The notes beneath the pieces are model-generated. The model did no database searches. It was not told where the DNA came from and was given only the letters and a program-made list of their open reading frames with translations. Below, in pieces: positions 3,939 through 49,761 of a DNA stretch of 64,000 bases. The position numbers were made by a program, and so were the translations under genes. The DNA lies in the NCBI RefSeq assembly GCF_030406045.1, contig NZ_CP128988.1:1957438-2021437 (forward strand), written 5' to 3'. Position 1 is the stretch's first letter, and every line of letters starts with the position of its first letter. Source of the DNA: Thiohalobacter sp. IOR34 (lineage in GTDB: Bacteria > Pseudomonadota > Gammaproteobacteria > Thiohalobacterales > Thiohalobacteraceae).

Positions 3939-5399
3939 ATGGACGCCTTGTTCGACATCGTCGGTTCCGATTTCTTCAAGCCCCTGACCGGCAAGCACCG
4001 TGCACTCTATGCCGACTGCATCACCGCCTTGTTCGAACGGCTGCACGGCCCCTACGCCGACTACCGGGTCAATATCACCCAACGTGAATTGCGCGAGCTT
4101 TTCCATCCGCTGGTCGCCACTCATGTGGACCAGACGATCTCGGCAATACCCGACGAAGAGCCTGACCTGGTAGGCCGGGAATCGGATCGCGCCCGTGCCG
4201 TCATCCGCCGCCTGGTGGAAACCGGCTGGCTGGAGACCCGGCTGGACAAGGGCACCATGCTCTCGGTCTACGGCCTCTCCCGCCCCGGCAAGGCGCTGGC
4301 AGACACCCTCTACCGCCTGCAAGGCGGCGGTATGCGCACCATCCGGCGCAACGTGCGTTCCACCCGCAATTCCCTGGAAGCCTATGTGCGCAGCGAAGGG
4401 CGGGAGCCCTACGAGCTGCTAGACGCCTTCGACGCCGCCCAGCGCATCATGTCGGACCTGAGCGACGACATCGACGCTCTGGAATTGCAACGCCGCAAAT
4501 TGACCGAAGACGTGGCGCGCAGCCGGGGAGAGGGCATTGGTGAAATCCTCCACGAGCTGCGCCTGCGGCTGCCGGAGGTGACCCGCAAGTTCACGGCGGA
4601 ATCCGTCGTCCAGCACCGCGGCCATATCGAGTCCCTGCTGGATGCCATCGAACACTGGTCACCCGAACGGCGCGAGACCGCCGACCGCGCCATCCTCGCG
4701 GCCCAGCCCGTCTTGGAAAACGAGCTGCTGGCGGGCGAATCCGCGCTCTGTTGGCTGACCGGAAACATCCGCGAGCGGGTCACGGCGGCCATGGAGGTCA
4801 AGATGCCGGAACTGCGCGAGGCGGTCTCCAATTTCGGCCGCCGCATTCAGCTCATCGTCATGCAGCAATCGGCCCTGGCCACCCAGGGCCGCGACACGAC
4901 GGCACACCTGATAGAGAGGCTGAAACGGCAGCCGCGCGACCGGCAGGAGGCCCTGTTGAGCCGCTTGGCCGGCGCCATGTTCCCCTTGCGGGTCCGGCTG
5001 CCCGACCCAGAACGGGTCACAGTGAAGGAACGCGCGGTGCGGCGCAAGCCCATCGATACCGGCCTGGCGCAGCCGCGTCTGACGCGGGAGGAACGGCGCC
5101 AGGCCCACATCCAGCAGGCCCTGGAGACCGCCTTCGCCCTGACGGAGCAGGAGGTCGACGCCTACGTGCTGGAGCAGATGGGCGCGGCCCGGGCCATGAG
5201 CCTGCGCCACTTCCGGGTCACCAATGCCCTGGAGCTGCTGGCACTGTCCCACAGCATCGAGGTAGCTGCCCACAGGGACACCGGCTACGAGTGGGACATC
5301 GTGCCGGAGCACGACGAACAGGGCGGTATCCGCTGGTTCGACACCGGTTACGGCCGCATGCAGGCCTTCACCCTCAAGCGCCGAGGCGGCACATCATGA
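3939..5399 (+). CDS. jetA: Wadjet JetA, kleisin-like subunit
   Basis: The 486-residue protein corresponds to JetA (MksF-like), the kleisin subunit that links the SMC heads. The N-terminal third looks like a winged-helix module, the middle is rich in charged helices (DLSDDIDALELQRRKL), and the C-terminus ends in a second likely winged helix. Its TGA overlaps the jetB ATG (5396-5399), so the genes are coupled. Family membership is inferred from gene order, size and partners as much as from motifs. Confidence 0.82.
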   Translation: MDALFDIVGSDFFKPLTGKHRALYADCITALFERLHGPYADYRVNITQRELRELFHPLVATHVDQTISAIPDEEPDLVGRESDRARAVIRRLVETGWLETRLDKGTMLSVYGLSRPGKALADTLYRLQGGGMRTIRRNVRSTRNSLEAYVRSEGREPYELLDAFDAAQRIMSDLSDDIDALELQRRKLTEDVARSRGEGIGEILHELRLRLPEVTRKFTAESVVQHRGHIESLLDAIEHWSPERRETADRAILAAQPVLENELLAGESALCWLTGNIRERVTAAMEVKMPELREAVSNFGRRIQLIVMQQSALATQGRDTTAHLIERLKRQPRDRQEALLSRLAGAMFPLRVRLPDPERVTVKERAVRRKPIDTGLAQPRLTREERRQAHIQQALETAFALTEQEVDAYVLEQMGAARAMSLRHFRVTNALELLALSHSIEVAAHRDTGYEWDIVPEHDEQGGIRWFDTGYGRMQAFTLKRRGGTS

Positions 5400-6067
5400 G
5401 CGTCTTTCTCGATGCCTTTCATGAGGCCCTGGACGCCACGCCCCTGCGCGGTGAACGGTCCTTTCAGGCCATCATCCACCGCCTGCTGGAACACGGCATC
5501 ATCGTCGCGGATGATTCCGAGGTGGAGCGCCAGTTGTACGAGCAGGCGGTTTCCGCCTTCCCCCTGTTGCGGGACTGGTTCGAAATCGCCGGGCTGCGCC
5601 TGGCCCACTACCGGGAATTCCGCTACCTGCGCCTCTACCCGCCGGGCGCGCGTATCCCGGGCGTCCACCAGGACGATGAGGAACACCTCGACGCCACCGC
5701 CCTACGCGAGCGCTATACCCCGATGGAAGCACGCCTGTTACTGGTGCTGCGCGCGCTCTATGACCAGGCCCTGGCGCTGGGCAACCTGGGCGACCGGGGC
5801 GAGGCCAGCCTGCCGCTGGAGGAAGTGTTCACCGCCATGAACACCATGATGAACACGCCCATGCCGGAGGCCGCCGGCGAACGCGACCGGCTCTTCAAGC
5901 GTCTCAAGCGTCTCAAGGCCATCGACTATGTCAGCAGCGACGCCCCGGAGTCGGAACGCTGGCTCGCCATTCGCCCCATGATCACCACCCTGGTGAGCGG
6001 TGACCTGCTGGCGGACGCCATCCAGTACCTGGAAGAGACGGCTACGAACGACGGCGAAGCGGACTGA
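5396..6067 (+). CDS. jetB: Wadjet JetB, MksE-like subunit
   Basis: This 223-residue protein fits JetB (MksE/KITE-like), the small winged-helix subunit that binds the kleisin. The ATG at 5396 overlaps the jetA stop and the stop at 6065-6067 is one base from the jetC ATG. Features include an HxDDEEHLDATALRERYTP block and a helical C-terminus. Size and position between kleisin and SMC-like ATPase are standard for the JetABC core. Confidence 0.83.
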   Translation: MSVFLDAFHEALDATPLRGERSFQAIIHRLLEHGIIVADDSEVERQLYEQAVSAFPLLRDWFEIAGLRLAHYREFRYLRLYPPGARIPGVHQDDEEHLDATALRERYTPMEARLLLVLRALYDQALALGNLGDRGEASLPLEEVFTAMNTMMNTPMPEAAGERDRLFKRLKRLKAIDYVSSDAPESERWLAIRPMITTLVSGDLLADAIQYLEETATNDGEAD

Positions 6068-6068
6068 G

Positions 6069-9000
6069 ATGTACATCGACCAAGTAATCACCGTCAACTG
6101 GGGCGCCCTGCCCAACCGCGAATACGCAATGGGGCCGCTGACCCTGTTCACCGGCGGCAACGGCACCGGCAAGACCACGCTGGCCGACGCCATCCAGACG
6201 GTGATGACGGCGGCCCGCGACACCTTCTACAAGTTCAACCCCGGCCAGGACGAAAGCTCGCAGCGGGGCCGCTATGGTAAGACCCCGCGTACACTCGCCT
6301 CCTACGTGCTCGGCGCCGACCGCAACCGGCTGGCCCGCCCCCAGGGCGCCCACGGCTACGTGGCGCTGGTGTTCCGCACCACGCCGGGCGTCGAGGCCGA
6401 GAGCGCCCCGTTCACCGCCCTCATCGGGGTCTCCGCCGATCTCGGCATCGAGGGCAAAAGGCGAGCGCCGCGCACCATCGACCAGGTCAACCTCATTCTG
6501 CCGGACATCGCCCTGGGCCTTAACGACTTGCTCGCCGACCGAGAACAGGACGGGGAAGACCATGTCGTACCCGTCGAGCGAATCGAAAATCACCTGAAGA
6601 AACGCTTCGGTTCCGCCGCCGTCCGCGTCTACCGGGACAAGATCGGCTATCTCAAGGCGCTGTGGGGCCACCTGCGCAATCCCCAGGGCATGGCCGTGAG
6701 CGAGCGAGATGGAGACGGTACAGGCCACCCGCACCTGGTCGCGGCTGATGGCGCACAGCCCCATCGGTTCCATCAACGATTTCGTGCGCGACGAGATCCT
6801 GGAGCGGCGCGACGTCGCCAGCGCCCTGGACCACATGGTGCAGTCGGTGCAGACATTCAACCAGCTCAAGCAGCAGGCGGAGGAAGTCGAGGCCCAGACC
6901 GCCAGGCTGCGCCGCATCGAGCAGCATGGTGTACAGATCGAACGGGGTTACAAGGCCCTGGCGGAAAAACGGCTGCTGCTGGCGGAGACCGTCCTGTACC
7001 AACTGGAACAGAAACGCGATGCGACACACGAAGAAATCGAAAGCAGCCGGGCCGAACGGCGTGGCATCGGGCGTCGCCTGGCCGCGCTCGAATCCGAACT
7101 GCAGCAGGTGGACAAGGAACGTGTCGTCCTCCAGGCCGAGCGTGACGGCCATCCCGTGCTGGCCCAGAAGGGCGAGCTGGAAAAAGAGCTCGAAACCCTG
7201 CGTCAGGCGCAGTTCGATCAGACCTCGCAACTACTGAGCGCCCTGGAAACCGTACAGAAAAAACTCAATATCCTGCCGCAACTGAAATCCCTGGTGCCGG
7301 AGGGCGACGACGAACTGGCCAAAGGTCTGCTAGGACTCCTGCAGACGGGCGCGCCCTTGCAGGCACTCGATATCGGTGAGTACCGGCGTCACCTCATGGA
7401 GGTCATCCAGAAAGAGGCGGGGCTGTACCAGCCTGAGGCCTTCGCCGCCTTTGCCGAACGGGCCGGCGGCAGCCGGATCGACCGCCTGCTCGCGGACATC
7501 CGCGACCGGGTGAGCCGGCGCGGCGGTCTGGACGAACGGCAGCTCCTGCTGCAACAGCGGCTGCGCGACGAGCACCAGCGCCTGTCCGGAGAACTCAAGG
7601 AGACCGAGGCCCAACTCGACCGGCTGCAACGGGGCGAACCGCCCTTGCCCAGGGAGACGGAAGCCGCCCTGGCGCTGCTGCGCCGGGAACAGCCCGGCGC
7701 CCGGCCCCGGGTGCTCTGCGAGCTGATCGAGATGGCGTCAGGCTTCGAAGACTGGCAGCCGGTCATTGAGGCCTATCTGGGCAGAAACCGTTTCGTCATC
7801 CTGGTGGAACCCGAATACGAATCCAGCGCCACCCGGCTGTTGAAACAGCACCGGCTGCACCGCTGCAAGATCGTCCAGGGCGAACGGGCGCGTCGGGATG
7901 CCGCCCAACGCTCCGTAGAACCACACACCCTGCCAGCCTGCCTGAAGGTGGACGACCCCACGGCACTCGCTTATCTGCTCGGCACCTACGGCAACGTCAA
8001 GCTGGTCGGTGATATGGAGACGTTACGCTGGACCCCGCGCGGCATCATGAAAGAAGGCTTTGCCTCCAGCGGCTACACCCAGTTTCCCTGCCAGGCCCGC
8101 AACGACGAACTGACCTTTGGCCGGCAGGCCCGGCAATACCGGCTGGAAAGCCTGCGGGCCCGCAAACGGGAAACCGAAGAGACGCTGGCCCGCCTCGACG
8201 AACGGCTGGGCGCCCTCGGCCGCCTGGCCGACGGCCTCCACCTGCTGAAGACCGACACCGCCCTGGAGGAGATCGCCATCGGCCTGTACGAGCGGGCCGA
8301 ACGGATGACCCGGCTTCGCGACCGTATCGAGGCCCTGGACCTGGGCGAAGCCCAATCCCTGGAACGGCGCTACCAAGCCGCGCTGGAAAGGATGGAAGCG
8401 CTGCAAAAGGAAAAGGAAACCGCCATCGATCGCAAGGGGGCACTGGGCGAAAAGCTCAGGCAACTCGAAGAACGGCTGGCCGGACTGGAAAACGAACAGG
8501 CGGAAGCGCGCAAGGGACTGGAAGCGGCCCGCCGGATCGTCCTCGACCTCGCCCGGCCAGATTCGGATTACGATGCCGGGGCCGTCATTGAGGCGCTGGC
8601 CGCGCAGGCCCACCGGGACACGCCGGATACCGATGAGCTGCATGCGCGGATAGAAAACGAGCAAAAGCAGTTCAACGGCCACTGGCCCAACTACCGCAGC
8701 GCCATCCGGGAATACAACGCCGCGGTGCCATCCCGAGAGCAGGCCATTACATTGTCACCACAGGCGCTGGATACCAATACGCTGGAACACAATACCCGTT
8801 TCTTCATGTTCATGGCCATCCAGCACGAGGTCCGGGCGCGCCTGCACATGCTCGAAACCTCCATACTTAACGCCATCCGCGAACAGCTCGCCGACATCAA
8901 ACAGGAGATCGACAAGGCCGTCACCAACGACTTTGTCAACTTGGTGATGGCCAACATCCGCAGCGGCAGGCAGCAGATCGACGACCTCAACCGCACCCTC

Positions 9001-9750
9001 CAGCAGCACCGCTTCGGCGACGAGCAATATGAATTCATCGCCCACTACCGGGAAGGCCTCCACGGCGCCTACCGGCGTTTCTTCAAGGCCGTCGCCGACA
9101 AGTCACTGCTCAACGAGGATGCCTTCTCCATCTTCGACGACAGCCAGTTCGACGCCCAGGACATCCAAACCCGTGACGAGATCATGGACAAGCTGTTCCA
9201 GGGCAGGGACACCCGGGTCCGCGATGAGCTGCTGCGCATGGCCGACTACCGGGAGTATTTCGACTTCGATATCTACCGCGTGCATGAAGGCGAACGCATC
9301 TCCCTGGCCGAGGACGCCACCGGCAGCGGCGGTCAACTGGAAACCGCGGCCTACGCCATCCGCTCCGCTTCGGTGATCAACGCCTTCCGGTTGAACGACC
9401 GGCGCAGCCCGCGCCATTGCCGCTTCCTGCTCTTCGACGAGACCTTCGCCAAAACCGACGAACAACGCTCCGTGGAAATCCTCAAGCTGCTCACCCGCTC
9501 CCTGAAACTCCAGATCCTGTTCGTCGTGCCCTCGCGCTCGGCGGGTGTCTTCAAACCCATCCTCACCCACCAGCACGTCTTCACCAAGTTCAAATCGGTC
9601 AACGCACCGGGTGAGCTGAACGACCTGGTCGAAATCAAGTCGGAAATCCTGGACAACGAGAAAATCGCCAAGCTATGGGAGCAACACAAGGAAGAAGTCA
9701 TGCTCCAGGCCGCACTCGAATTCGACAACCTGGATACCGAAACGACCTGA
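6069..9750 (+). pseudogene. jetC: Wadjet JetC, SMC-like ATPase, with one frameshift
   Basis: JetC (MksB-like) is the DNA-translocating ATPase of Wadjet. The first segment (6069 to about 6705) carries the Walker A GGNGTGKTT near residue 31. The second (from 6709, 1013 residues) holds two long coiled-coil arms around a hinge region, the ABC signature SGGQLE and Walker B FLLFDETFAK near the end. The first frame fails just after GMAVSER; the second starts METVQATRTW and has a TGA at 6697-6699 upstream. Skipping one base near 6700-6708 joins them into a protein of about 1,225 residues. All other motifs are intact, so this is a recent mutation, a sequencing error or, less likely, two separate chains. 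Confidence 0.8.
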
Positions 9751-9987: not shown

Positions 9988-10806
9988 CCACGAGCGCAAT
10001 TAATAAACCTTTTATTTTCAATATCTTGCGGCACCTGCCAATTACGATAATGAGCGTCAAGATACTGAAATTTAGTGGTAGTAGTATCCTGTGCTAGCAC
10101 ATTTTTGGGCACACCGATTTGCACGCCAACTCATGACACAATCGGTATCAGTACACGGAAGCTGTTTCAACACTACCGCCTCATGATTGGACCGGCAGTG
10201 CCCTGATTCCGTCCAGCAACACCCGGGTGGCACGGCAATCATCTTCGTTGTAATCCAAGATCCGCTGCTTGATTTCCAGATCACCGCTGTCGACCCATCT
10301 GTGGAACCATTCTATGGATGCCGCGCCTGATGGGTGAGTGTCACGCCAACTGAAGCCCAGGTACTTGGCAAGCGTCTTGATCGAATAGTCCTTTGTGGGC
10401 CACTCTGTCTTCGGGAGTACGACATCGAAGTAGAGGTCCACTGCATTGCCCGGATCAAAAAACTGTTCTAACTCCTCTTCGGTACATACGCCAGGATATT
10501 TTTCCCGCAACTTCCGCCAGATCGTGCGTTCATACTTGGAGTAGTAATAAACAGAACACTGTCCGGCTTCCTGCAAGTATTGCCACGCCTCTGCAAACGC
10601 CCTCTCCTCTTCCTCCGGCGTCGGGGTATCAGTAAAGAAAGCCACATAGCGTTCCCGGTCGTTATCGCCCTCACGCCGTTCGACAAATCCATGCACATAA
10701 CAGATATCCCGCATGGGATCGACCTCAATATCGAAGAAGATTTCCAGTGCCGAAGGCGGCAGTTCGACAGGTTCCTTCAAATATGGCGTACCATCAGGAT
10801 CAACTA

Positions 10807-11614
10807 GGGCGTGTTAACACTAATGCTGATATACTACATCCATGAAAATTACATCAGCAGAATTCAAAGTCATCGAAAAGTTACTGCCAAAACAGCGGGG
10901 TAACGTTTCCATATCCAATTTACAGGTACTCAATGCCATTTTGTATGTCGCGGAACACGGCTGCAAATGGCGAGGATTACCGAAAAAGTTCGGCAATTGG
11001 CATACGATTTACACGCGCGCCAACCGGTGGGCCAAGAAAGGCGTCCTGGATCATGTGTTCGCCGCACTGCAGGAAAACGATGTCATCAACATTCAGGTGG
11101 ATCATGTATCGCTCGATAGCACAGCTGTCAAAGTGCATCCTGATGGAACGGGCGCATTAAAAAAAACGGTCCACAATCGATTGGTAAATCGCGCGCGGGC
11201 TGGACAACCAAAATTCACATGGTTGCGGCTGACGCCAGAACAGCCGTGACGTTCTCGCTTTCTCCTGGTCAGGCAGGTGATGCGCCGGAGGGAAGAAAGC
11301 TGCTGAAAACCCTTGAAAATAAAGGATGGGAGGGGACGCATGTCATTATGGACAAAGCCTACGAAGGCGATGAAACGCGCCAGTTGGTATTGGAACTTGA
11401 AATGCTTCCTGTCGTCCCGCCCAAAAACAATCGGCTGAGCGTGTGGGAATATGACAAAGAGATGTACAAGAAACGCAACGAGGTCGAACGGCTGTTTCGT
11501 CGGCTGAAGGGTTTTCGCCGGATCTTCTCGCGATTCGACAAACTGGATTGCGTTTTCATCTTCTTCATTCATTTCGCACTGATTGTCGACGCACTGATTA
11601 GTGTTAACACGCCC
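10807..11614 (+). mobile_element. IS5-family (IS427-group-like) insertion sequence
   Basis: The ends are perfect 18-bp inverted repeats, GGGCGTGTTAACACTAAT at 10807-10824 and its complement at 11597-11614. The element is 808 bp and is flanked by a TA duplication (10805-10806 and 11615-11616), as expected for the IS427 group. It encodes a two-frame transposase. Perfect ends and the restorable target gene suggest it may still be mobile. Confidence 0.9.
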
Positions 11615-11617
11615 TAA
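10842..11617 (+). CDS. IS5-family DDE transposase made by -1 frameshifting
   Basis: The first frame (10842-11249, 135 residues) carries the N-terminal helix-turn-helix region; the second (to 11617) carries the catalytic remainder with VIMDKAYEGDE and a YKKRNEVERLFRRLK block. A run of eight A residues at 11159-11166 lies in the overlap. A -1 slip there joins ALKK to NGPQSIGKSRAGWTTKIH, restoring the continuous transposase sequence expected for this family. The second frame is open through the slip site, and its stop codon overlaps the right inverted repeat. Confidence 0.85.
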
Positions 11618-12650
11618 TAAACACGCCCGCTGATGTAACTTACCTAATGTCCCCACCCCAATGCCTGGGAAAACAGCCTTACGTCCGGCAATAAAATGCG
11701 ACGGCTCGCTGGCAGCAAATTCGTGGATGGTCTGAACATGCTCGACCATAGCATCACGCTTCGATCTCCCAAGTTCCGGGATCAGGGTAAGATCGTTGGT
11801 TGACTGAAGTTCGTCGAGGCACGCGCTATACCAGTGACACAACTTGCACGTCCCCCCGTAGGCCGGCAACGTCTTCTCGGATCGGGCAATAATCTCGCGC
11901 GCGGTAGCCAAATATACTTGGTATTCGTCCCATAGTGTACGAGGATTCCTCACACCTTGAGGTGCGGCCAAATCGTATGTGATCTCCCGACCATTAACGT
12001 CCCAGATAAATCCACGGCGACCGGCAGACAGCCCTTTACGCTCCAGGATATCCACATAGAGGGCAAGCTGCATGGCGTAATGCTTCTTCGGTCTACCATC
12101 ATCCTCAGAGCCCACTTCTCCAGCACCGGACTTGATGTCTCCTGGCACGTAGCCATCCCCTTCACGGCGCAACAAATCCGGATCCCCTAGCAAGTCATCA
12201 GACTGGATACGACCACTGTAGATCAGTGGTTCACCACGCCGGATCGCCTCTTCAGTCAATCGTTCCTTTTCATCACCTGCGTAGAGGGAAAGATCAACAT
12301 ATGGAATGTCCAGAGCACGAATAACATCCCGCTCGAAGGCGTTCCCTCTCTCCCACAAGAGCTGGATAAAAGGATTAATCTCATCCCGTTTCGAAGTATC
12401 GCCAAACAAATCCATAGTGACCCGATGTGGACAGTGCACCAAGTCATAGAGCATGGATCCTGTAATTTGAGTGGCCATTCCATCCCCCTGGTTCCCACAT
12501 CAGATATAGATCACCCGTAAAACCCGCTACCACAAGTTAGCGCCTTTTTCAACCCAGAAAGAGGCTCCCTTCTGGCCGTCTTTCCGTCGTTTTTGCCGCC
12601 CCACCAATGGTTAGCATAGCTACCGCGACAAGCACTGTGGAGCACAAACA

Positions 12651-14181: not shown

Positions 14182-15027
14182 ATGGCCCTGAAAATCACCA
14201 TCACCAGCACCAAGGGAGGTGTCGGCAAGACGACGTTGACCGCCAATCTGGGTGGCCTGCTGACCGATCTCGGGCAGAAGGTATTGCTCGTGGATGCGGA
14301 TGTGCAACCCACGTTGTCCAGTTACTACCCTCTGGAGCAACAAGCCGAACGAGGGTTGTCCTCGCTGATCACGGAGGGTGTAGTCGAGGGCGTCATCAGC
14401 CGTACAGCGATCCCGTGTTTAGACCTCATCCTCTCAGACGATCCAGAGGGGATGTTGCAGAACTGGATCCTGCACACGCCGGATGGGCGTGTCCGTCTGA
14501 AGCACCTGCTGGGCCGCTTCGACCAGGATTACGATTTCATCCTGCTGGATACGCAAGGCGCTGTCGGACCGCTACAGGATTCCGCCGTCCTTGCCGCAGA
14601 TCTCCTGGTCTCCCCGATCCCGCCGGAAATCCTCTCGGCGCGGGAGTTCGCTCGTGGCACAGTGCAGATGCTGGACCGCTTGCGTCCGATGGCCTTCCTC
14701 GGTGCGCCGCTGGGTCCGTTGCGCGGACTCATCTACCGCATGGACCGGACCGTCGACGCACGTCGCATCGCCCAGGAGTTGTGTCGGGAGGCCTACGGTC
14801 CCAGCAAGGGCGCCATCACCATCCTGGACACGGTGATTCCGAACACCGTCGCTTACCGGGAGGCGGCCACCGCGCGGGTGCCGGTGCACCGATGGGAACC
14901 CCGACGGCAAGGACCCACACTCAGTGCCCGCGACGCCATGCTGACCCTGGTCTCTGAACTCTTCCCGCACTTGTCGGACAAGAAGCTCGACTGCGAAAGC
15001 CTGTCGGCACAAAAGGAAACACGCTGA
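14182..15027 (+). CDS. parA: ParA-family partition ATPase
   Basis: A 281-residue ParA/Soj-like ATPase. The deviant Walker A TSTKGGVGKTT lies at residues 8-18, the A' motif VLLVDADVQPT near 37 and the Walker B FILLDTQGAVG near 118. The start at 14182 is chosen for its ribosome site (GGAGG at 14172-14176). The stop overlaps the start of the next parB-like gene by one base. In PFGI-1/ICEclc-type elements a parA near one end is needed for element stability. Confidence 0.88.
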   Translation: MALKITITSTKGGVGKTTLTANLGGLLTDLGQKVLLVDADVQPTLSSYYPLEQQAERGLSSLITEGVVEGVISRTAIPCLDLILSDDPEGMLQNWILHTPDGRVRLKHLLGRFDQDYDFILLDTQGAVGPLQDSAVLAADLLVSPIPPEILSAREFARGTVQMLDRLRPMAFLGAPLGPLRGLIYRMDRTVDARRIAQELCREAYGPSKGAITILDTVIPNTVAYREAATARVPVHRWEPRRQGPTLSARDAMLTLVSELFPHLSDKKLDCESLSAQKETR

Positions 15028-16688
15028 TGGCAAGGAAGCACCCGACCAGTGAACAGATCCAGTCGATGCTCCGTGAGGGTCACTTCGGCCAAAGCCGCGA
15101 ACTGCCGCCGGCGGATCCGCTCGACACCACGCAGATGCTGCTGGAGATCGACCGCATCCAGCCCTACGACCGCAATCCCCGCAAGGAACGCAACCCGCTC
15201 TACGACGAGATCAAGGCGTCCATCCGCGCCCAGGGCGGGCTCAACAATCCGCTGACCATCACCCGCCGGCCGGGGGATACCTATTATATGGTCGAGTCCG
15301 GCGGTAACACCCGCCTGCAGATACTCAAGGAGTTGTGGGCGGAAACTCACGACGAACGTTTTTATCGCATCCACTGCCTGTTCCGGCCCTGGGTCTCCGA
15401 ATCCCATGTCCTCACCGCCCACCTGATCGAGAACGACAAACGCGGGGCGCTCACCTTCATCGACAAGGCCCTGGGCGTGCGTGAACTGCGTGAAGTGCTG
15501 GAATCGGAGCAATCGGCGCAGCTCTCTCAACGACAACTGGCGGAGACACTGCGGGAACGGGGATACACGCTGGACCAGAGCATGATCTCCCGGATGGACT
15601 ACGCCGTGGACGTGCTGCTCCCGCTCATCCCGGAGGCGCTGCGCGCCGGCATGGGGGCACCGCAGATACGCCGGATCCGGCGCCTCGAATCCGCCTGCCG
15701 TCGCTTCTGGAACGACCAGGATAAGGCGCCGGAGCTGTTCGAGGTGCTGTTCAACGAGGCATTGGCCGCCCATGACGGTCCGCATTGGGAACTGGATGCG
15801 GTGCAGCGGGAGCTGGAAACCCGGATGGCCGAGGCCACGGGCCTCTCTCTCAAACACGTGCGGCTGGAGATCGATGCGCGACTGGCCAGTAGCGCCAACG
15901 AGCAGAACACTTTGAGCCCGGCCACGGACACCCGGCCCGAGCCTGCCACAACGCTAGAAGCCACAGGAGAGACGCCACCGAGCACTACGACCCCCGAGGC
16001 GGAAACCCCCGGGCCTGCGGAGCCACCACGCCCGACACCGCCCGGTGAGACCGATTCGGAATCAGAAGGCCCGGCTCAGAAAGCGCCGCCGTCAACCCCC
16101 TCCCCGGACAATTTCGCCGGTAGCGAAACTGGACAGCCGCAGGCTGCCCGAAGAGAGCATGCCAGGGACGACGCGCATCAATCTGACGCATCGTCCTACA
16201 ACGGACCCGGCGATCTGAAGTCGCTACGCGGCCGGGGTTACGTGCTCGCCCTCAAGATCGCCAAGCGACACGACCTGGAAGACTGCATCACGCCCGCCGG
16301 CAAACTCGGCATGGGGTTTCTGGTGGACATTCCGCGCGAATCCATCATCCCGGTCGCGGGCCAGGAAGACGCCCTCCGCCAACTCTACCGCCAATGGGTG
16401 TGGTGGCTCCTGTTGAGCTTTTCCGAGGAGAGCGTACAGCCCGAACGCATGGAGCGGATCCCCGACGACCTGCTGCTGCGCAACCTGATCCTGGAGAAGA
16501 ACGACACCCAGGCCCTGGCGCTGGTTGGTGAACCCGATTGGAAGGCGCTCGGCTACGAACTGCTGAACAACCCATCGGTCCCGCAGGCCACCATTGATGA
16601 CCTGCTGGCCCTGGCGCAGACCTGCCGCCGCATCCGGCAACTGATGGATGACGACGGCGGACTGGCCCTGTGGCAGACCGACGGATAA
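15027..16688 (+). CDS. ICE-type ParB-family protein (PFGI-1 class)
   Basis: The 553-residue protein has a ParB/Srx-like N-terminal domain (IQPYDRNPRKERNPLYDEIK, VESGGNTRLQIL, HLIENDKRGALTF) and a helix-turn-helix (LSQRQLAETLRERGYTLDQ). A proline/threonine-rich linker follows at about residues 290-385, then a conserved C-terminal domain. The length and layout match the large ParB class of PFGI-1-like ICEs rather than short chromosomal ParB. It is translationally coupled to parA. Its DNA target is unknown; parS-like palindromes are present at 18781 and 20690. Confidence 0.85.
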   Translation: MARKHPTSEQIQSMLREGHFGQSRELPPADPLDTTQMLLEIDRIQPYDRNPRKERNPLYDEIKASIRAQGGLNNPLTITRRPGDTYYMVESGGNTRLQILKELWAETHDERFYRIHCLFRPWVSESHVLTAHLIENDKRGALTFIDKALGVRELREVLESEQSAQLSQRQLAETLRERGYTLDQSMISRMDYAVDVLLPLIPEALRAGMGAPQIRRIRRLESACRRFWNDQDKAPELFEVLFNEALAAHDGPHWELDAVQRELETRMAEATGLSLKHVRLEIDARLASSANEQNTLSPATDTRPEPATTLEATGETPPSTTTPEAETPGPAEPPRPTPPGETDSESEGPAQKAPPSTPSPDNFAGSETGQPQAARREHARDDAHQSDASSYNGPGDLKSLRGRGYVLALKIAKRHDLEDCITPAGKLGMGFLVDIPRESIIPVAGQEDALRQLYRQWVWWLLLSFSEESVQPERMERIPDDLLLRNLILEKNDTQALALVGEPDWKALGYELLNNPSVPQATIDDLLALAQTCRRIRQLMDDDGGLALWQTDG

Positions 16689-16711
16689 CGGTGCCGGAAG
16701 CGAGGTGGACG

Positions 16712-17317
16712 ATGCCGAAGACGACACACGCAGAGTTGGTGTTCCACACCCTGCGCTACGTCACGGAAACCCTGGCCGAAGGGGACATCCACTCGGTGCT
16801 GGACCTGGGTTTCCGGCTGGACCAGATCGCCCGCCTGGAGCGCTTCACCCTGCGCGATCTCTATCACATCAGCCAGGTACGCACGCACTTCATGGACATC
16901 TCCGTGGACCCCGCCTGCTTCGACCGGGTACTGGACCACATGGAACGCAACAAACGTCACGATGCCCTGCAGAACGAACTCATCCGCCTGCGCGCACCCC
17001 TCGCCATGATGCGGGCCTTCTTCGGCATGACCAACGCCGAATACGCCGCCCGCCGCAAACTGCTCGGCATGACAGGCACCGGCATCGGGCGACCGCCCGC
17101 ACCGTCCGAAGACGACGAGCAGCGCGTCTGGAAGGCCTGGCAGGCCAACGCCCACCACCCCGTGGAAGCGCGTTACCTGCACGTCGGGCAGACAACCGGC
17201 GTGCCCTTGAACACGGTATGGGCGTTGATCCGATCCTGGGAGGCTACCGGGCTGCTGCCGGCGAAGCAATCGGACGATGCCAGCAAGGTCGTTCGGCTCA
17301 AGACCAACGAACAATGA
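16712..17317 (+). CDS. DUF2857-like ICE protein
   Basis: About 201 residues from the ATG at 16712, which has GAGG just upstream; a GTG at 16670 inside parB would add 14 residues. The protein is helical (LDLGFRLDQIARLERFTLRDLYHIS), has a helix-turn-helix-like tail and resembles the DUF2857 proteins that follow parB in PFGI-1-type ICEs. The function is unknown. It lies between the partition genes and the replication-type gene, on the same strand. Confidence 0.7.
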   Translation: MPKTTHAELVFHTLRYVTETLAEGDIHSVLDLGFRLDQIARLERFTLRDLYHISQVRTHFMDISVDPACFDRVLDHMERNKRHDALQNELIRLRAPLAMMRAFFGMTNAEYAARRKLLGMTGTGIGRPPAPSEDDEQRVWKAWQANAHHPVEARYLHVGQTTGVPLNTVWALIRSWEATGLLPAKQSDDASKVVRLKTNEQ

Positions 17318-17333: not shown

Positions 17334-18755
17334 GTGGAGCGCGATACCGGAAAGATCAGACCTGAAACACATGCCCTGGATGCCTTCATCCAGGCGACCG
17401 TGGAACGGCTCCTGACCACCGAGACCCGCAGCGCCGCTCCAGCCGACGGCCTGTTGTTCCTCGGCAACTGGCACGATGCCATGCCGCGGCTGATCTTCCA
17501 GGACCCGGTGCTCCAGCCGGTGGACACCCGCATCTGGGGTGTGATCAAGATCGCCGCCGCCGGCACCCACCCGACCGCCTTCCCCACCTACAAGCAGATC
17601 GCAAGAACCGCCAACGTCGGCTCCGAGGCCACCGTCGCCCGATCCATGGCGATCCTGCGCGCCACCCGCTGGCTCTCGCTTTGCCGGCGTGTGCGTGATG
17701 CTCAGGGCCGTTTCCGTGGCAACATCTATGCCCTTCACGACGAGCCCCTGCCGCTGGCCGACACTCTCTATCTCGACCGGGATTACATCCAGTTTCTGGA
17801 GCAGGCACAGAACCACGCCCATCCCCAGGTACGGAAGGTTGCAGCCGCCGTACTGGGTACCATCGAGGAGGATCTCCAGGAAGGCGACGGTGGCACCGCG
17901 CACCTCAATCCAATGCAGAGGCGCCTGGAGGCCATCCGGACCCTGCAAGGCGAGGCGAGCCGCTTCTTCGGCTTCTCCTCCCGCCAACTTCAAAATCTGA
18001 AGTCGGCGCCTGATGTCACCCCACTTCAAAATCTGAAGTCCCACCCACTTCAAAATTTGAAGTCGGAACGTAGTAGTAGTTGTAGTTATATAAATAAAAA
18101 AACAACTACTACAACAACAGGGAACCCAGAAAAGTCTGACGCGCGTGCGCGCGAAGAGAACACGCAGAGCCCGCTCGCATTCCCCTCGTCGCTGACGCCG
18201 AACGAACTCCGTCTGGCCAGGATCTGTCTGCGCAATGCGCCGGAGACCATGCGACAGGACATCCTGGACGAACTGGCCGGCCGGTTGCTCGCTGCCAAGC
18301 GCAAGAGTGAACCCATCGACAACCCCATCGGCTACCTGGCGCAACTATGCAAGGCGGCCCGCAAAGGATCGTTCACCCTCACCAGCCTGGGATTGAAGGC
18401 CCGGGAGCAACGTCGCCAGGAGGCCCATCTGAAGTGGCTGGAAGAGATCAGCCGCGAACGTGCACTGGCCCACATGCAGACCCTGCTCGAAAACCCTGGC
18501 CGACCGAGCCCAGACCGGGAATCCCGGACACAGGGGGCAAGTGATGGCAGTGCCATCACCTCTCACGAGCATTCGGCTGATGGTAGTGCCATCAACCCAT
18601 CGCTTGAAATCCAGACCTCAACCCATCGGACATACGGACCTCGGAGTGATGGCAGTGCCATCACTTTGCACAACGACTCGACTGATGGCAGTGCCATCAG
18701 TCCTGCGACCGGCCCACCGGAGGATTCGCGCGAAAGATTCAAGCCACCGGGGTGA
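17334..18755 (+). CDS. STY4528-like ICE replication protein containing internal DNA repeats
   Basis: The 473-residue protein starts at GTG 17334. An N-terminal winged-helix region (FPTYKQIARTANVGSEATVARSM) resembles plasmid and ICE replication-initiator-type proteins. The middle is unusual: LQNLKS recurs three times because the DNA carries three 17-bp palindromes, followed by a low-complexity AT-rich tract (KKTTTTTT). A second helical domain follows. The tail repeats SDGSAI or TDGSAI, again encoded by palindromes, and the last palindrome contains the stop codon. The layout of iteron-like sites plus AT-rich DNA inside an initiator gene recalls phage lambda O. Confidence 0.72.
   Translation: MERDTGKIRPETHALDAFIQATVERLLTTETRSAAPADGLLFLGNWHDAMPRLIFQDPVLQPVDTRIWGVIKIAAAGTHPTAFPTYKQIARTANVGSEATVARSMAILRATRWLSLCRRVRDAQGRFRGNIYALHDEPLPLADTLYLDRDYIQFLEQAQNHAHPQVRKVAAAVLGTIEEDLQEGDGGTAHLNPMQRRLEAIRTLQGEASRFFGFSSRQLQNLKSAPDVTPLQNLKSHPLQNLKSERSSSCSYINKKTTTTTTGNPEKSDARAREENTQSPLAFPSSLTPNELRLARICLRNAPETMRQDILDELAGRLLAAKRKSEPIDNPIGYLAQLCKAARKGSFTLTSLGLKAREQRRQEAHLKWLEEISRERALAHMQTLLENPGRPSPDRESRTQGASDGSAITSHEHSADGSAINPSLEIQTSTHRTYGPRSDGSAITLHNDSTDGSAISPATGPPEDSRERFKPPG
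17987..18063 (+). repeat. three 17-bp ACTTCAAA palindromes in coding DNA
   Basis: ACTTCAAAATCTGAAGT occurs at 17987-18003 and 18023-18039; the third copy, 18047-18063, has TTTGAAGT and is a perfect 8-1-8 palindrome. Spacings are 36 and 24 bp. They encode LQNLKS each time. Regular palindromes next to AT-rich DNA suggest binding sites for an initiator or repressor. Confidence 0.85.
18064..18120 (+). other. AT-rich tract with a 10-bp inverted repeat, possible origin melting region
   Basis: Directly after the three palindromes the GC-rich background drops to a T/A-rich stretch (TTATATAAATAAAAAAAC) framed by GTAGTAGTTG at 18073-18082 and CAACTACTAC at 18103-18112. It is still translated in the replication-type protein. 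Such a tract next to iterons is the usual layout of an unwinding element; this is inference. Confidence 0.55.
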
Positions 18756-18776
18756 TGGCACTGCCATCACCCCGGT
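18541..18776 (+). repeat. five TGATGGCA palindromes
   Basis: Copies of TGATGGCAGTGCCATCA (8-1-8) lie at 18542-18558, 18578-18594 (one mismatch), 18647-18663, 18683-18699 and 18753-18769 (centre C). The last is the middle of a perfect 31-bp palindrome, 18746-18776, with 15-bp arms beginning ACCGGGGTGATGGCA. They encode DGSAI four times; the fifth contains the stop codon. They could be operator or partition sites. Confidence 0.88.
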
Positions 18777-18780
18777 ACAG

Positions 18781-18794
18781 GTGCCACGTGGCAC
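18781..18794 (+). promoter_or_regulatory. parS-like palindrome, copy 1
   Basis: GTGCCACGTGGCAC is a perfect 14-bp palindrome with the CACGTG core of bacterial parS sites. It sits in the gap between the replication-type gene and the PFL_4669-type gene. An identical copy is at 20690-20703. Confidence 0.6.
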
Positions 18795-18827: not shown

Positions 18828-19649
18828 ATGGCCCAAACGACGACGGCAGACAACGCGGACGAACAGACGCCCCGCGAACTTCCCGACAACGCGGACCCGG
18901 CCGTGGACTACAAGACCGCCGCGGATCGTCCCGGCACCCTACGCGGCGACGCCTGCCTGGTGATCCAAACCCGGCAGGCGCAACGTCTGGTCTACGGCCG
19001 CAGGCAATCCCGAGAGCATCCCGGCATCATCGGGCTGGTCCGCTTCGGCATGCTGATGAAACGCATCTGGGTCTCGGCGATGCTGGACGACCCTTACGCG
19101 GACTGGTTTCTGCTGCAAGTCCATGAGGCCCTCGAAACCGGCCGCAGTGAGATCCAGAAGATGCGAACCGAAATGGACGAGCTGTTGCGCTCGACACGTG
19201 GGGTGGAGATCGCCATCGCCCACTCCCTCAAACCGGCCCGTGTTCCGCTCCAGTTTGCCAACCCCTACGGCTACATGGGCGCCTATCTGGTGGGCGACTA
19301 CGACGAACTGGTCTGCGCGGTGCTCACCGCCCGGCACGTCGGCCTGCTCGGCCGAGACCCCGCCGAGCAGATGTTGCACCGAGGCGGCCGACTGATCCGC
19401 CGCGCCTTCCTGCTTCCCACCCAGTGGAAACACTGTGCCGTCGATCGCAACGATGTGCGCCAGGACAACCAGCGCGCCCAGGCGGCGCGTACCGCCATGG
19501 GGGAACTGCCGCAGGAGGTTCTGGACGGCACGCGCCGAGCCCGCCACGCCCCGGAGATCCGGAATCAATCAACGTCGGCTGCGCCAGTGAGCAAAGGCTT
19601 CCTTTCTGCTCGCGCCACCGGCGACACGCAGGCGGCCCATGGCGAGTAG
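18828..19649 (+). CDS. PFL_4669-type integrating conjugative element protein
   Basis: A 273-residue protein preceded by GGAGG at 18815-18819. It has the features of the PFL_4669 (TIGR03761) family of PFGI-1-like ICEs: LRGDACLVIQTRQAQRLVYGR, IIGLVRFGMLMKRIW, and a NPYGYMGAYLVGDYDELV block followed by ARHVGLLGR. No enzyme motif is visible and the biochemical role is unknown. Its place between the replication-type gene and ssb matches the usual gene order of this ICE class. Confidence 0.8.
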   Translation: MAQTTTADNADEQTPRELPDNADPAVDYKTAADRPGTLRGDACLVIQTRQAQRLVYGRRQSREHPGIIGLVRFGMLMKRIWVSAMLDDPYADWFLLQVHEALETGRSEIQKMRTEMDELLRSTRGVEIAIAHSLKPARVPLQFANPYGYMGAYLVGDYDELVCAVLTARHVGLLGRDPAEQMLHRGGRLIRRAFLLPTQWKHCAVDRNDVRQDNQRAQAARTAMGELPQEVLDGTRRARHAPEIRNQSTSAAPVSKGFLSARATGDTQAAHGE

Positions 19650-20628: not shown

Positions 20629-21540
20629 ATGGCTGGCAACAGACAACACGCCGTGGACGGCAATGCCGAGGTAGACCGTCCGACTCCGAGTGCCACGTGG
20701 CACCGAACCGCGACGGCGCCGCATGAACGGCTTGGGGTTGAGACGAGCGTGCGGCAACTCGACGTGGACCTGCTTCGCCCGGGGCGCTACCAACCCCGCC
20801 GCAAGTTCACTTCCGAGGCGCTTGCGGAGCTGGCCGAATCCATCCGCACCGAGGGTGTGGTGCAACCGATCATCGTCCGCCCCCTCCCCGACACGGCACC
20901 GACACGCTACGAGATCATCGCCGGCGAGCGCCGCTGGCGCGCCGCCCAACTGGCGGGACTCCAGCACATCCCCGCCCTGGTACGATCCACCGACGACCGC
21001 TCCACCCTGGTCCAAGCCCTGGTGGAGAACATCCAGCGCGAGGACCTCAACCCCGTGGAGGTGGCGCGCGGCGTGGAGCGCCTGATCAGCGAGTTTCGGC
21101 TGACGCACCAGGAGGCCGCCCGCCGGCTCGGCCGTTCACGCGACAGCATCACGCATCTTCTCCGGATCCTGAAACTGGAACCTCCGGTCCTGGCCCAGGT
21201 CGAGGACGGCCGGCTTAGCCTCGGACACGCCAAGCTGCTGGCAGGACTGCCGCAGCCCATGCAGCGCCGTCTGGCGGACGAAACCATCCACAAGGGGCTG
21301 TCGGTCCGGGCGCTGGAGCGGCGGATCCGCGCCCTGAACGGCGCACCCGAGCGGCGGTCAGACGCCCACAGCCGGCGTGACGCCGACATCGTGCGCCTCG
21401 AGCAGCGGGTGGGTGAAATCGTCGGCGCGGAGACCCGGGTCGACTATGAGCCGGAACGTGGCCGAGGGCGGATCTCGTTCACCTTCCACTCTCTGGAGGC
21501 CTTGGAGGGGATTCTGGAACGGCTGGGATTCCACGGGTAG
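20629..21540 (+). CDS. parB: second ParB-family protein, short chromosomal type
   Basis: The roughly 303-residue protein has the canonical ParB core: ELAESIRTEGVVQPIIVRP, the CTP-binding GERRWRAAQ, ALVENIQREDLNP and a helix-turn-helix (LTHQEAARRLGRSRDSITHLLR), with a C-terminal dimerisation domain. It is the second ParB in the window, and only one ParA is seen. A parS-like palindrome lies in its own 5' coding region (20690-20703). The first 40 residues are poorly conserved and a later start is possible. Confidence 0.83.
   Translation: MAGNRQHAVDGNAEVDRPTPSATWHRTATAPHERLGVETSVRQLDVDLLRPGRYQPRRKFTSEALAELAESIRTEGVVQPIIVRPLPDTAPTRYEIIAGERRWRAAQLAGLQHIPALVRSTDDRSTLVQALVENIQREDLNPVEVARGVERLISEFRLTHQEAARRLGRSRDSITHLLRILKLEPPVLAQVEDGRLSLGHAKLLAGLPQPMQRRLADETIHKGLSVRALERRIRALNGAPERRSDAHSRRDADIVRLEQRVGEIVGAETRVDYEPERGRGRISFTFHSLEALEGILERLGFHG
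20690..20703 (+). promoter_or_regulatory. parS-like palindrome, copy 2
   Basis: GTGCCACGTGGCAC, identical to 18781-18794, lies inside the 5' end of the short parB gene, where it encodes SATWH. Finding a perfect CACGTG-centred 14-mer twice in 2 kb beside parA/parB genes makes a partition site plausible. Confidence 0.6.
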
Positions 21541-44365: not shown

Positions 44366-44817
44366 CGTCGCTGATCCCTGGACCCATTCACGCGGATGAT
44401 CTGGCGGCATGTTTCCAAGAGGCCGGAGGGCGCTACGGCATCGCTCCCGCCCTCCTGCGAGCCATCGCCGAAGTGGAGAGCGGGCTCGACCCGCAAGCGA
44501 TGCATGTCAATGCGGACGGGACAGCCGACATCGGGCTGATGCAGATCAACTCATGGTGGTTTCCCGTCCTGAAGCAGCACGGCATTGAGCCACGGGATCT
44601 TTGGGACCCCTGCCTTAGCATCGGCGTGGGCGCCTGGATCCTGGCCGGTAACGTCCGGCAATTCGGCTATGGGTGGCGGGCCGTCGGCGCATACAACGCC
44701 GGCACGAGAAGAGACCAAACGACAGAACGACAACGTGAAGATTATGCGATCAGGGTTTATGGGCATCTGCCTTGCGGTGTTGGCCGGTTGTGCCTCGGCA
44801 CCGCCCAGCCAGAGTGA
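44323..44817 (+). CDS. conjugation lytic transglycosylase
   Basis: A 164-residue secreted SLT-family protein: signal peptide (LGLVAALASLIPGPIHA), catalytic glutamate in LRAIAEVESGLDP, then DIGLMQINSWWF and AVGAYNAGTRR. It opens the peptidoglycan for the secretion channel, as do VirB1-like proteins. The start is GTG 44323, and the 3' end overlaps the lipoprotein gene. Confidence 0.85.
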   Translation: METPRRVLGLVAALASLIPGPIHADDLAACFQEAGGRYGIAPALLRAIAEVESGLDPQAMHVNADGTADIGLMQINSWWFPVLKQHGIEPRDLWDPCLSIGVGAWILAGNVRQFGYGWRAVGAYNAGTRRDQTTERQREDYAIRVYGHLPCGVGRLCLGTAQPE

Positions 44818-45442
44818 ATCGAGCACACCGACAAAGCTAGGCGTGACACAGCAACCGTCCGTCGCGCACCGGGGCGCACAACCGTTCTACGTCGTGTGTG
44901 CGGACTGTCCCGGCGCGACACCGAAGACGCCATTCAGCGAGACAAACAAACCGCTCACCCAACAACCGGTAGCGATGACCGAACCGGTCAAGAACAGCAC
45001 CGTGGAAGGAGCCGGCAGAGCCATACAGGCCGCCAAGGCTGAGATACCCAAGCCGCAGGCGAGGGTCTTGTTTGCCGCCCACTTCGCCTTCGGCACTGCG
45101 CAGCTATCAGCCGCCGACAAGCAGGCCCTGCAAGACCTGCTGCCCGAACTCAGGAAACAACGGCTCACCATCGTGGGCCACACCGACAGCGTCGGTCCCC
45201 AGGACTTCAACGACTGGCTGGCGCTGCGCCGCGCGCAATCGGTGAAGAACCATCTGGTCACGCTCGGACTGGATCCCGAACGTATCCGTGTCAGCGGTCG
45301 CGGCAAGTGCTGTTACCTGCAAGCCAACGACACCGCCCTCGGCCGGGCGGCCAACCGCCGTGCCGAGATCAGACCCGAACCTTTGGACACCCCGAGCAAG
45401 GGCCATTCAACTGCAAACCAACCTGGAGGTAATACACCATGA
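44744..45442 (+). CDS. OmpA-like lipoprotein of the transfer operon
   Basis: About 232 residues. The lipobox LAVLAGC is at residues 10-16. A disordered proline/threonine region leads to a C-terminal OmpA domain (AHFAFGTAQLSAADKQALQD, IVGHTDSVGPQDFNDWLALR, RISG-type end with NRRAEI) that binds peptidoglycan. It probably anchors the secretion apparatus to the cell wall. GTG 44735 is an alternative start. The stop overlaps the pilin ATG. Confidence 0.8.
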   Translation: MRSGFMGICLAVLAGCASAPPSQSESSTPTKLGVTQQPSVAHRGAQPFYVVCADCPGATPKTPFSETNKPLTQQPVAMTEPVKNSTVEGAGRAIQAAKAEIPKPQARVLFAAHFAFGTAQLSAADKQALQDLLPELRKQRLTIVGHTDSVGPQDFNDWLALRRAQSVKNHLVTLGLDPERIRVSGRGKCCYLQANDTALGRAANRRAEIRPEPLDTPSKGHSTANQPGGNTP

Positions 45443-45735
45443 CTCGAACCATCGCCTTCCACCAGTCCGCTGCGCTGCTGGCGATTCTGCTGCTGCCGGG
45501 GATCACCCTGGCCGCGACCACGGGCGCGGAGTTCCAGAGCGCTTATCAGTTCTTCTACGATGCGGCGACCGGTTATCTCGGCCGCGGCATCGCCATCGTC
45601 GGCGGCCTGATCGGTCTGGGTTACGGCGCCGCCAAGGGCAGTCCGTTGCCCGCCATCCTGGGCGTGATCCTGGCGGTGTTCGGCGCGCTGGGTCCGACCA
45701 TCATCGACGCCATTTTCGGCTCCGCCGTGGTGTAG
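45439..45735 (+). CDS. traA: TraA-like conjugative pilin
   Basis: A 98-residue prepilin with a signal peptide (LLAILLLPGITLAA) and two hydrophobic helices separated by a short glycine-rich loop (GIAIVGGLIGLGYGAAKG, LGVILAVFGALGPTIID), typical of VirB2/TraA pilins. It starts the F-type gene order and is followed at once by traL. Confidence 0.78.
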   Translation: MTRTIAFHQSAALLAILLLPGITLAATTGAEFQSAYQFFYDAATGYLGRGIAIVGGLIGLGYGAAKGSPLPAILGVILAVFGALGPTIIDAIFGSAVV

Positions 45736-45737
45736 GC

Positions 45738-46025
45738 GTGGAACAGGAGAACTACCTGATCCCCCGCCGACTAGATGATCCGCCCCAGTTCTTTTTCTGG
45801 GACGCGGACGAGGCCATCCTGGTGATCTTCTTCACCCTGATGGGGGCCTTGCTCGGCCAGATCCTCGTCGGCGTCGTCATCGGCCTGCTGTTGTCCCGCG
45901 GCTTCGCGCGGGTGAAGGCGGAAGGCGGTCGGGGGATCATCGCCCGCTTTCTCTACTGGTACACGCCGTCGCAGTGGTGGTTTCGGGGGCGTGCGCCCAG
46001 TCACGTCCGGGAGTACGTGGGATGA
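45738..46025 (+). CDS. traL: TraL, type IV secretion (VirB3-like)
   Basis: A 95-residue protein starting at GTG 45738. The N-terminal IPRRLDDPPQFFFWDADE motif is diagnostic of TraL, followed by one membrane helix (LVIFFTLMGALLGQILVGVV) and a WYTPSQWWFRG end. It overlaps traE by four bases. Confidence 0.85.
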   Translation: MEQENYLIPRRLDDPPQFFFWDADEAILVIFFTLMGALLGQILVGVVIGLLLSRGFARVKAEGGRGIIARFLYWYTPSQWWFRGRAPSHVREYVG

Positions 46026-46621
46026 GGGAAAGCCGCTACCGTTCCCTGCTCGCCGAGACCCTCTGGCGGCGCAACCTGTGGATGGCCGTCGCCCTGGCAA
46101 TGGCCGTCTCCAACATGGGCCTGGCGTACTGGGTGATCAATACCGACGTGCGGGAGAAGACCATCGTCGTCCCGCCGGTGTTCGAGAAGACCTTCTGGGT
46201 GCATGGCGACGAGGTGTCACCCGAGTACCTGGAACAGATGGCGGTGTTCTTCGCGAGCCTCGCCCTCACCTACAACCCCGACAACATCGATCACCAGGTG
46301 AGCCTGTTCCTGCGTTACGCGGATCCCAAGAGCTACGGCGCCCTCGCCGCCAAACTGGAAGGCGACGCGCACAAGATCAAGCGCAACCGCCTCTCCTCGG
46401 TGTTCTACCCCCAGGAGATCCGGCTCAAGGGGCAACAGGCCGCCCTCACCGGCCAACTCACCACCCTGGTGGGCAACAAACAGACCGAACAACGCCAGGC
46501 CCGATTCCTGATCCGGTTCGTCTACCGGGACGGCCGGCTGTTCGTCTCGAAATTCACGGAGGTCCAAGACAGTGCGAATCCGTTTGCTACTGACGGCGAT
46601 ACTGCTGAACCTGAGTCTTGA
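46022..46621 (+). CDS. traE: TraE, type IV secretion core assembly (VirB5/VirB8-like)
   Basis: A 199-residue inner-membrane protein with one N-terminal helix (LWMAVALAMAVSNMGLAYWV) and a periplasmic domain (KTFWVHGDEVSPEYLEQMA, FLIRFVYRDGRLFVSKF) matching TraE. The 3' end overlaps the traK start by 50 bases. Confidence 0.85.
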   Translation: MRESRYRSLLAETLWRRNLWMAVALAMAVSNMGLAYWVINTDVREKTIVVPPVFEKTFWVHGDEVSPEYLEQMAVFFASLALTYNPDNIDHQVSLFLRYADPKSYGALAAKLEGDAHKIKRNRLSSVFYPQEIRLKGQQAALTGQLTTLVGNKQTEQRQARFLIRFVYRDGRLFVSKFTEVQDSANPFATDGDTAEPES

Positions 46622-49381: not shown

Positions 49382-49761
49382 GCAAGGCGCTTCTCAGCCT
49401 CCTGGTTCTCGCCCTGCTCGCCGGCTGCGCCAGCAGCCCCAAATACGCCTGCGGCGTGCCCGAGGGCATCGGCTGCAAGCCGGTCGGGGAAGTCTACGAG
49501 GCTTCGGTCACCGGCACCCTGACCCGTGGCCGCGTCACACCTGACGACGAAGACGGCGAACAGGAGGCCGCCGAGCGCCCGCTCGCCGAGCCGGCGAACA
49601 CGCCTGTCGTCGCCACGGTACAGCCGGGCGATCCGCTGCTCACCCGCCCGCGGCACATCCGGGTGTGGATCAACCGCTGGGAAGACAAGGCAGGCGACCT
49701 CCACGACGAGACCTACCTCTACCTGCGGCTGGACAACGGCACTTGGCGGCTCGGGCGATGA
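49378..49761 (+). CDS. traV: TraV, outer-membrane lipoprotein of the transfer channel
   Basis: A 127-residue lipoprotein with the lipobox LLAGCASS at residues 12-19 and the YACGVPEGIGCKPVGEVY motif of TraV. It anchors the TraK/TraB core to the outer membrane. Its ATG overlaps the previous stop and its stop overlaps the traC start. Confidence 0.85.
   Translation: MSKALLSLLVLALLAGCASSPKYACGVPEGIGCKPVGEVYEASVTGTLTRGRVTPDDEDGEQEAAERPLAEPANTPVVATVQPGDPLLTRPRHIRVWINRWEDKAGDLHDETYLYLRLDNGTWRLGR

Follow-up and report, generated by a model that had tools for sequence, protein, structure and literature searches.

What function do the arrays of DNA palindromes within and behind a single ICE gene of Thiohalobacter sp. 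IOR34 serve, and could the element replicate from them once it has excised? The gene lies in a stretch of 64,000 nucleotides (contig NZ_CP128988.1, positions 1,957,438 to 2,021,437), which was analysed as a whole and is called the window here; positions are those of the window unless preceded by C1. From our comparative and modelling analyses, we propose, with a probability of a little over three in four, that the ICE has its vegetative origin (oriV) in this region, with the STY4528-family protein encoded there as the initiator. A candidate origin had been put forward in a preliminary description of this DNA, and it is now supported by a layout conserved across the family, selection acting on the DNA, correspondence with the origins of pKLC102 and PFGI-1, and the plasmid lifestyle of relatives. 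From these lines we infer that replication would proceed from the region after excision.

The gene in question (17334–18755, plus strand) encodes a protein of 473 aa, which scores 227.3 bits against the NF040582 profile of STY4528-family ICE replication proteins (curated cut-off 130). STY4528 was its sole match in NCBIfam at E 0.01, without a phage O family, and a Pfam search gave no match, including RepA_N, Rep_3 and the phage replication protein O family. The repeats at the STY4528 locus are palindromic, whereas Rep_3 iteron plasmids have direct-repeat iterons. The surrounding module starts with a ParA gene at 14068 and continues with an ICE-type ParB gene (15027–16688, plus strand; TIGR03764, 313 bits) and the usual 5' neighbour, a DUF2857 gene (16670–17317, plus strand; PF11198, 160.5 bits). 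Downstream lie a PFL_4669-family ICE gene (Pfam AcaB; 18828–19649, plus strand; TIGR03761, 211.8 bits, PF08900), which is the usual 3' neighbour of oriV, an SSB gene at 20200 and a second, canonical ParB gene at 20629. The order ParB – DUF2857 – STY4528 – PFL_4669 is standard for the STY4528 family. A perfect palindrome, GTGCCACGTGGCAC, occurs at 18781–18794, just 3' of the STY4528 gene, and at 20690–20703, inside the canonical ParB gene. Its centre CACGTG is parS-like, the window clade and locus L025 share its first copy, and the pair is likely to be the parS of the second ParB.

The hallmarks of an ICE, namely a tyrosine integrase, a relaxase and a T4SS on a chromosomal element, are all present. 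Genes of an F-type T4SS (TraL, TraV and TraC, the last with 788 bits) occupy 44585–53136, and the same contig encodes a MOBH relaxase (C1:2047167) and a tyrosine integrase (C1:2052318) 26–31 kb past the window end, the ends of the element lying at least partly outside the window. The T4SS of pKLC102, in contrast, is typed MPF_G, and the window element looks like a hybrid ICE, with a replication module of pKLC102 type and transfer genes of F type. A FlhC/AcaC-like gene at 13464 accompanies the AcaB gene at 18828. Elsewhere in the window, a nuclease-like gene on the minus strand (10181–12478) is apparently split by an insertion with two transposase-like ORFs (10842–11617), and a 1013-aa coiled-coil protein of SMC-like appearance is encoded with its neighbours at 3939–9750, possibly a Wadjet/MukB-type plasmid defence operon.

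Two types of 17-bp palindrome are found at the STY4528 gene. Type A (ACTTCAAAATYTGAAGT) occurs three times in mid-gene, at 17987–18003 (ACTTCAAAATCTGAAGT) and 18023–18039, each with one mismatched pair, and in perfect form at 18047–18063 (ACTTCAAAATTTGAAGT). Next to these sites, and before the coding sequence of the C domain, is an AT-rich inverted repeat of 46 bp (18070–18115, arms 18070–18091 and 18094–18115; 27% GC), our proposed unwinding element; GC content at 18050–18109 is 27%, compared with 60–70% in the surroundings. Type B (TGATGGCASTGCCATCA) occurs in five copies between 18542 and 18769, spaced by 36–70 bp: 18542–18558, in frame and encoding DGSAI; 18578–18594, with one mismatched pair; 18647–18663; 18683–18699; and 18753–18769, within a perfect 31-bp palindrome (18746–18776). 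The preliminary description had listed three palindromes, an AT-rich inverted repeat and five further palindromes within one coding sequence. All of these exist, but only four of the type B copies are within the reading frame, as the fifth extends over the stop codon TGA and supplies it. No DnaA box or IHF site was found in the region.

The coding sequence contains four perfect 17-nt palindromes, compared with a mean of 0.08 and a maximum of 2 in 2000 synonymous shuffles. Type A was found nowhere else in the 2.96-Mb genome with one mismatch allowed, and type B has one extra copy outside the array of the window. This lone perfect B palindrome (AGGTGATGGCACTGCCATCACCT; C1:1565462, L001 1498–1520), far from the ICE, adjoins an AAA-ATPase gene and three repeats spaced by 23 bp, and is possibly a remnant or part of a second element sharing the B site. 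Since it is the only extra copy genome-wide, a dispersed regulon for the A and B sites is unlikely.

To place the locus in its family, 107 STY4528 loci were gathered, from which a non-redundant set of 72 (<90% identity) was derived; one of the searches gave 580 candidates, of which 80 were kept. The 70 STY4528 genes compared hold 67 perfect palindromes of at least 17 nt, where synonymous shuffling yields 10.3 (maximum 15), and 85 more lie in the 3' flank, in 51 of 69 loci. In the same loci, parB genes with 12 (8.1 in synonymous shuffles) and DUF2857 genes with 6 (4.0) stay close to expectation, and for PFL_4669 a smaller excess is seen across the family (18, compared with 6). The palindromic DNA is real, non-random and functionally constrained. 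Its order across the family is A in mid-gene, then a GTAGTA...TACTAC inverted repeat, both within the DNA that encodes the linker between N and C domains, then B from about the stop codon on. The GTAGTA...TACTAC inverted repeat is present in 52 of the 72 homologues, often around TATATAAATA. Most lineages with a clear A have the form RGTTCNN-N3-NNGAACY, and of 46 B sites 37 share a CASTG-type core, most of these fitting TGNTNNCASTGNNANCA. Some homologues have no clear A or B palindrome under the criteria used, and many relatives have a single B palindrome between STY4528 and PFL_4669. The arm letters vary between elements with palindromicity kept, and copies within one element mostly agree. Conservation of the palindromes in homologous genes, which the preliminary description had named as a test, was therefore found for symmetry and position but not for the letters themselves. 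In five enterobacterial loci (L043, L110, L112, L114 and L123), TTYTACACAGNGTGTARAA-type palindromes take the place that the GTAGTA hairpin has in others, about 400–420 bp before the STY4528 stop, possibly as a third site class.

The B array normally lies just 3' of the stop codon and is translated only in the window clade (L046–L048, L050 and L051), where the spacings between B copies are all multiples of three, compared with 31 of 47 elsewhere, many of them in 57-bp and 36-bp units. Because the protein of other members ends before the B array in the alignment, we regard an intragenic B array as a clade-specific extension, and an intragenic position of the A sites and AT tract as a trait of the family. 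The earlier idea of an origin embedded in the replication-protein gene accordingly applies to the A/AT half, and to the B array in the window clade alone. Several relatives carry dnaB, topoisomerase III and SSB genes within the module. Relatives are recorded as circular plasmids, and in two such records (72 and 95.5 kb) no other replication initiator is annotated, the gene tables being incomplete and a relaxase being present. A blastn search for DNA-level relatives on plasmids returned none. Five gammaproteobacterial-type STY4528 loci (L066, L075, L076, L077 and L090) are found in MAGs labelled Planctomycetota, Planctomycetales, Chloroflexota or Thermomicrobiales, probably through mis-binning or contamination.

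Which protein reads the palindromes was approached by comparing distances. Those between B arms correlate with those of the STY4528 N domain (Mantel r 0.40–0.47) at least as highly as with those of any neighbouring protein. Given the STY4528 N domain, +0.10 to +0.12 is left for ParB and 0.00 to +0.10 for DUF2857, and the values for PFL_4669 and the C domain are slightly negative, little in every case; with each of these controlled for in turn, the N domain retains +0.21 to +0.38. The A arms correlate with several module proteins, and STY4528 is not singled out. The covariation signals for A and B are weak and confounded by common ancestry, and do not reveal which protein binds. Furthermore, the arms of A differ in sequence from those of B, so that a single protein might not recognise the two. 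Only the A sites and AT tract may be the origin, with the B array serving as a partition centromere for the ICE ParB (TIGR03764) or being read by another module protein. Palindromic arrays are typical of centromeres, the module itself encodes ParB and ParA, and the unlike arms as well as the correlation of B arms with ParB are in line with such a division. We nevertheless consider it unlikely: the ParB correlation nearly disappears given the STY4528 N domain, while the reverse is +0.26, a separate parS-like pair is present (GTGCCACGTGGCAC, at 18781 and 20690), and the B-bearing repeats of pKLC102 have been reported as oriV.

The excised ICE could instead replicate by rolling circle, starting at oriT and using its relaxase, the palindromes being only regulatory, either in autoregulation of STY4528 or as an operator of the PFL_4669 promoter. 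In ICEclc, the excised element needs TraI and oriT1 to multiply, and mutants in either have a lower copy number (PMC6561031); the window element has a MOBH relaxase gene, and many relatives have just one B palindrome in the gap ahead of PFL_4669. However, operators leave the mid-gene A sites beside a conserved AT-rich hairpin unexplained, as well as B arrays of 5 to 16 copies, and a regulatory role fits poorly with a genome that has A nowhere else and B once elsewhere. Replication from oriT only is also at odds with the dnaB, topoisomerase III and SSB genes in the module of several relatives, and the authors of the ICEclc study allow for other ways of replicating (PMC6561031). Although we judge this explanation improbable for the locus, the TraI/oriT1 route may be the main one in some members, or a second route.

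The way in which the sequences diverge bears on whether DNA or its products are selected. Among the 35 loci in which A occurs at least twice, 22 carry it in differing reading frames of one gene, so that the peptides differ though the DNA is kept. Between the window gene and that of L050 (76% protein identity), changes at codon positions 1, 2 and 3 number 9, 8 and 7 in the linker (52 codons), 11, 10 and 59 in the N domain (163 codons), and 15, 21 and 24 in the C-terminal extension. Judging by these counts, synonymous change in the linker is suppressed without codon-position bias, which together with the mixed frames of A indicates that selection acts on the DNA. Divergence in the C-terminal extension is spread over all three codon positions, so that no protein-level constraint is apparent there. 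What is maintained is the symmetry, as 14 of the 16 B copies of pKLC102 are perfect palindromes in fixed register despite comprising eight different sequences.

Varying arms with persistent symmetry, even within the one array of pKLC102, would also fit hairpins in place of protein-binding duplex sites, for instance signals for a primase or for single-strand initiation, or structures in RNA, and strand displacement has been suggested for pKLC102, according to a citation in PMC2647930. We regard hairpins as very improbable, because A-C mismatches in A sites outnumber G-T mismatches (45 vs 18), mostly at the degenerate R position, which fits half-site recognition but not plus-strand RNA pairing, and because B sites keep mostly fixed TG....CASTG....CA letters. 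An RNA hairpin was rejected on the types of mismatch, among which G-U pairs on the plus strand are not preferred. That the palindromes are protein-level repeats or inserted palindromic mini-elements without origin function is scarcely credible: LQNLKS and DGSAI do recur in frame in the window gene, but homologues read the same DNA palindrome in other frames, the peptides differ while the DNA symmetry persists, and the extension lacks protein-level constraint. Frame mixing and codon-position counts thus lead us to reject protein-level repeats; the LQNLKS and DGSAI repeats had initially been suggested to follow from constraint on the DNA.

We return to the proposed oriV and its initiator. The AlphaFold model comprises a confident winged-helix N domain, a low-confidence stretch at about residues 240–275, a confident helical C domain (289–386) and disorder from about residue 397. 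Residues 218–244, partly forming two short helices in the model, are encoded by the A sites, 246–261 by the AT tract and 403–456 by the translated B sites; disorder is predicted for the greater part of the linker and for the tail encoded by B. The N-domain model matches Geobacillus DnaB (Z 8.3, rmsd 4.5, 121 aligned), entries titled initiator or Rep (4pql and 4pt7, Z 6.0; 5kbj, 5.5; 4pta, 5.4), RctB (Z 5.7) and DnaD (Z 5.6), all of these being modest matches near common-fold level, with unrelated winged helices scoring a similar Z. The absence of lambda O from these fold matches carries no weight. Foldseek alone gave no match at E 0.001, and a sequence search of solved structures gave nothing useful. 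The likeness in fold supports a way of working like that of lambda O and pSK41-type systems rather than membership, as the profiles share no family. A literature search returned no binding or replication data for any STY4528 protein.

On this basis, the winged-helix N domain would bind the palindromic iterons as a dimer, and binding at the A array would open the adjoining inverted repeat of 27% GC. The helical C domain would then recruit the helicase, which would be host DnaB here and the module's own dnaB product in several relatives. The B array, past the conserved part of the gene, would act as a second iteron set that loads or titrates the initiator and determines copy number and incompatibility. 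What the data show are the sites, their conservation, the selection on DNA and, in a model, the arrangement of domains; binding, melting, loading of the helicase, control of copy number and recognition of both A and B by STY4528 are all steps that we infer. The A sites and AT tract may be tolerated inside the gene because the linker that they encode is mostly disordered; in the window clade the B array is translated as well, as a disordered tail.

More tentatively, STY4528 might be an unrecognised initiator across the SPI-7/pKLC102/ICEclc superfamily, with the origin in its own linker. Its iterons (A, RGTTCNN-N3-NNGAACY; B, TGNTNNCASTGNNANCA) could have diversified with the winged helix into many mutually blind specificities, an intragenic, self-coevolving code by which co-resident ICEs would avoid cross-replication and incompatibility. 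The additions made here are the assignment of an initiator, the intragenic half of the origin and the diversification of the iterons. Genes for catabolism, resistance and virulence travel on elements of this family, and the analysis names a candidate initiator and a candidate minimal origin for the excised form. Such an origin is easy to miss because half of it is coding sequence, and deleting or recoding the STY4528 gene would remove the origin as well as the protein. Such ICEs could be typed for incompatibility by the sequence of their palindromes. The proposal is worth testing, as it names an initiator and exposes a diversified iteron code.

Origins at or within initiator genes are known from several systems. 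Phage lambda, whose O gene had been cited as having the same design, carries four iterons and an AT tract in mid gene O (PMC7466680). The likeness holds for A-type iterons in mid-gene with the AT-rich region next to them, but not for the B array, as no second palindromic array is described at the end of gene O, and profile searches do not place the window protein in the lambda O family. The origin of staphylococcal RepA_N plasmids offers just as good a parallel. In pSK41, the N domain binds four Rep boxes located centrally in rep, which encode a linker that is deletable if the origin is supplied elsewhere, and both domains are DnaD-like (PMC5703833). Central sites encoding a linker and a helical C domain are shared with the window protein, and its winged-helix N domain may resemble the DnaD-like one, with a fold Z of 5.4–6.0 to entries titled initiators, at or below a safe level. 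The hosts and the iteron form differ, no end-of-gene palindromic array is described, and the window protein has no Pfam RepA_N match. In IncU plasmid RA3, the origin likewise lies at the 3' end of the initiator gene repB and in downstream repeats, but the repeat type is different and only one truncated repeat is within the gene (PMC9455977). For ICEHin1056, oriV was assigned from iteron-like repeats in an AT-rich region (PMC2258188).

The closest correspondence is with elements that carry the same gene module. As in the window, pKLC102 (L039), a mobile island or plasmid of P. aeruginosa, has A-type palindromes inside its STY4528 gene, B-type palindromes directly 3' of it, and then PFL_4669. 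Its B array differs in being intergenic, with 16 copies at 57-bp spacing, from that of the window, with five copies at 36–70 bp, four of them translated. The array consists of sixteen 57-bp units, of which the first lies 30 bp past the STY4528 stop and each holds one B-type 19-mer; the oriV published for pKLC102 is a set of sixteen 57-bp repeats, in line with PMC2647930 and PMC2258188. PFGI-1 of P. fluorescens Pf-5 has a putative oriV of about 1.1 kb immediately upstream of PFL_4669, one half being AT-rich with four copies of a perfect 23-bp palindrome and the other consisting of four 46-bp repeats with an inverted repeat in each (PMC2647930). It shares with the window its place right upstream of PFL_4669 and the combination of an AT-rich palindrome half with an inverted-repeat array half, although the palindrome letters differ. 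Its authors stated that no Rep protein is encoded (PMC2647930), whereas in the window the origin-bearing gene is itself the proposed Rep. Because each pKLC102 repeat carries a B palindrome and the PFGI-1 oriV has the same two halves, the window region is very probably an oriV. With the same position, AT-rich palindrome part and second inverted-repeat array, it belongs, on its layout, to this described class of putative origins, and since the gene contains the candidate origin, its STY4528 product is the best candidate for the initiator.
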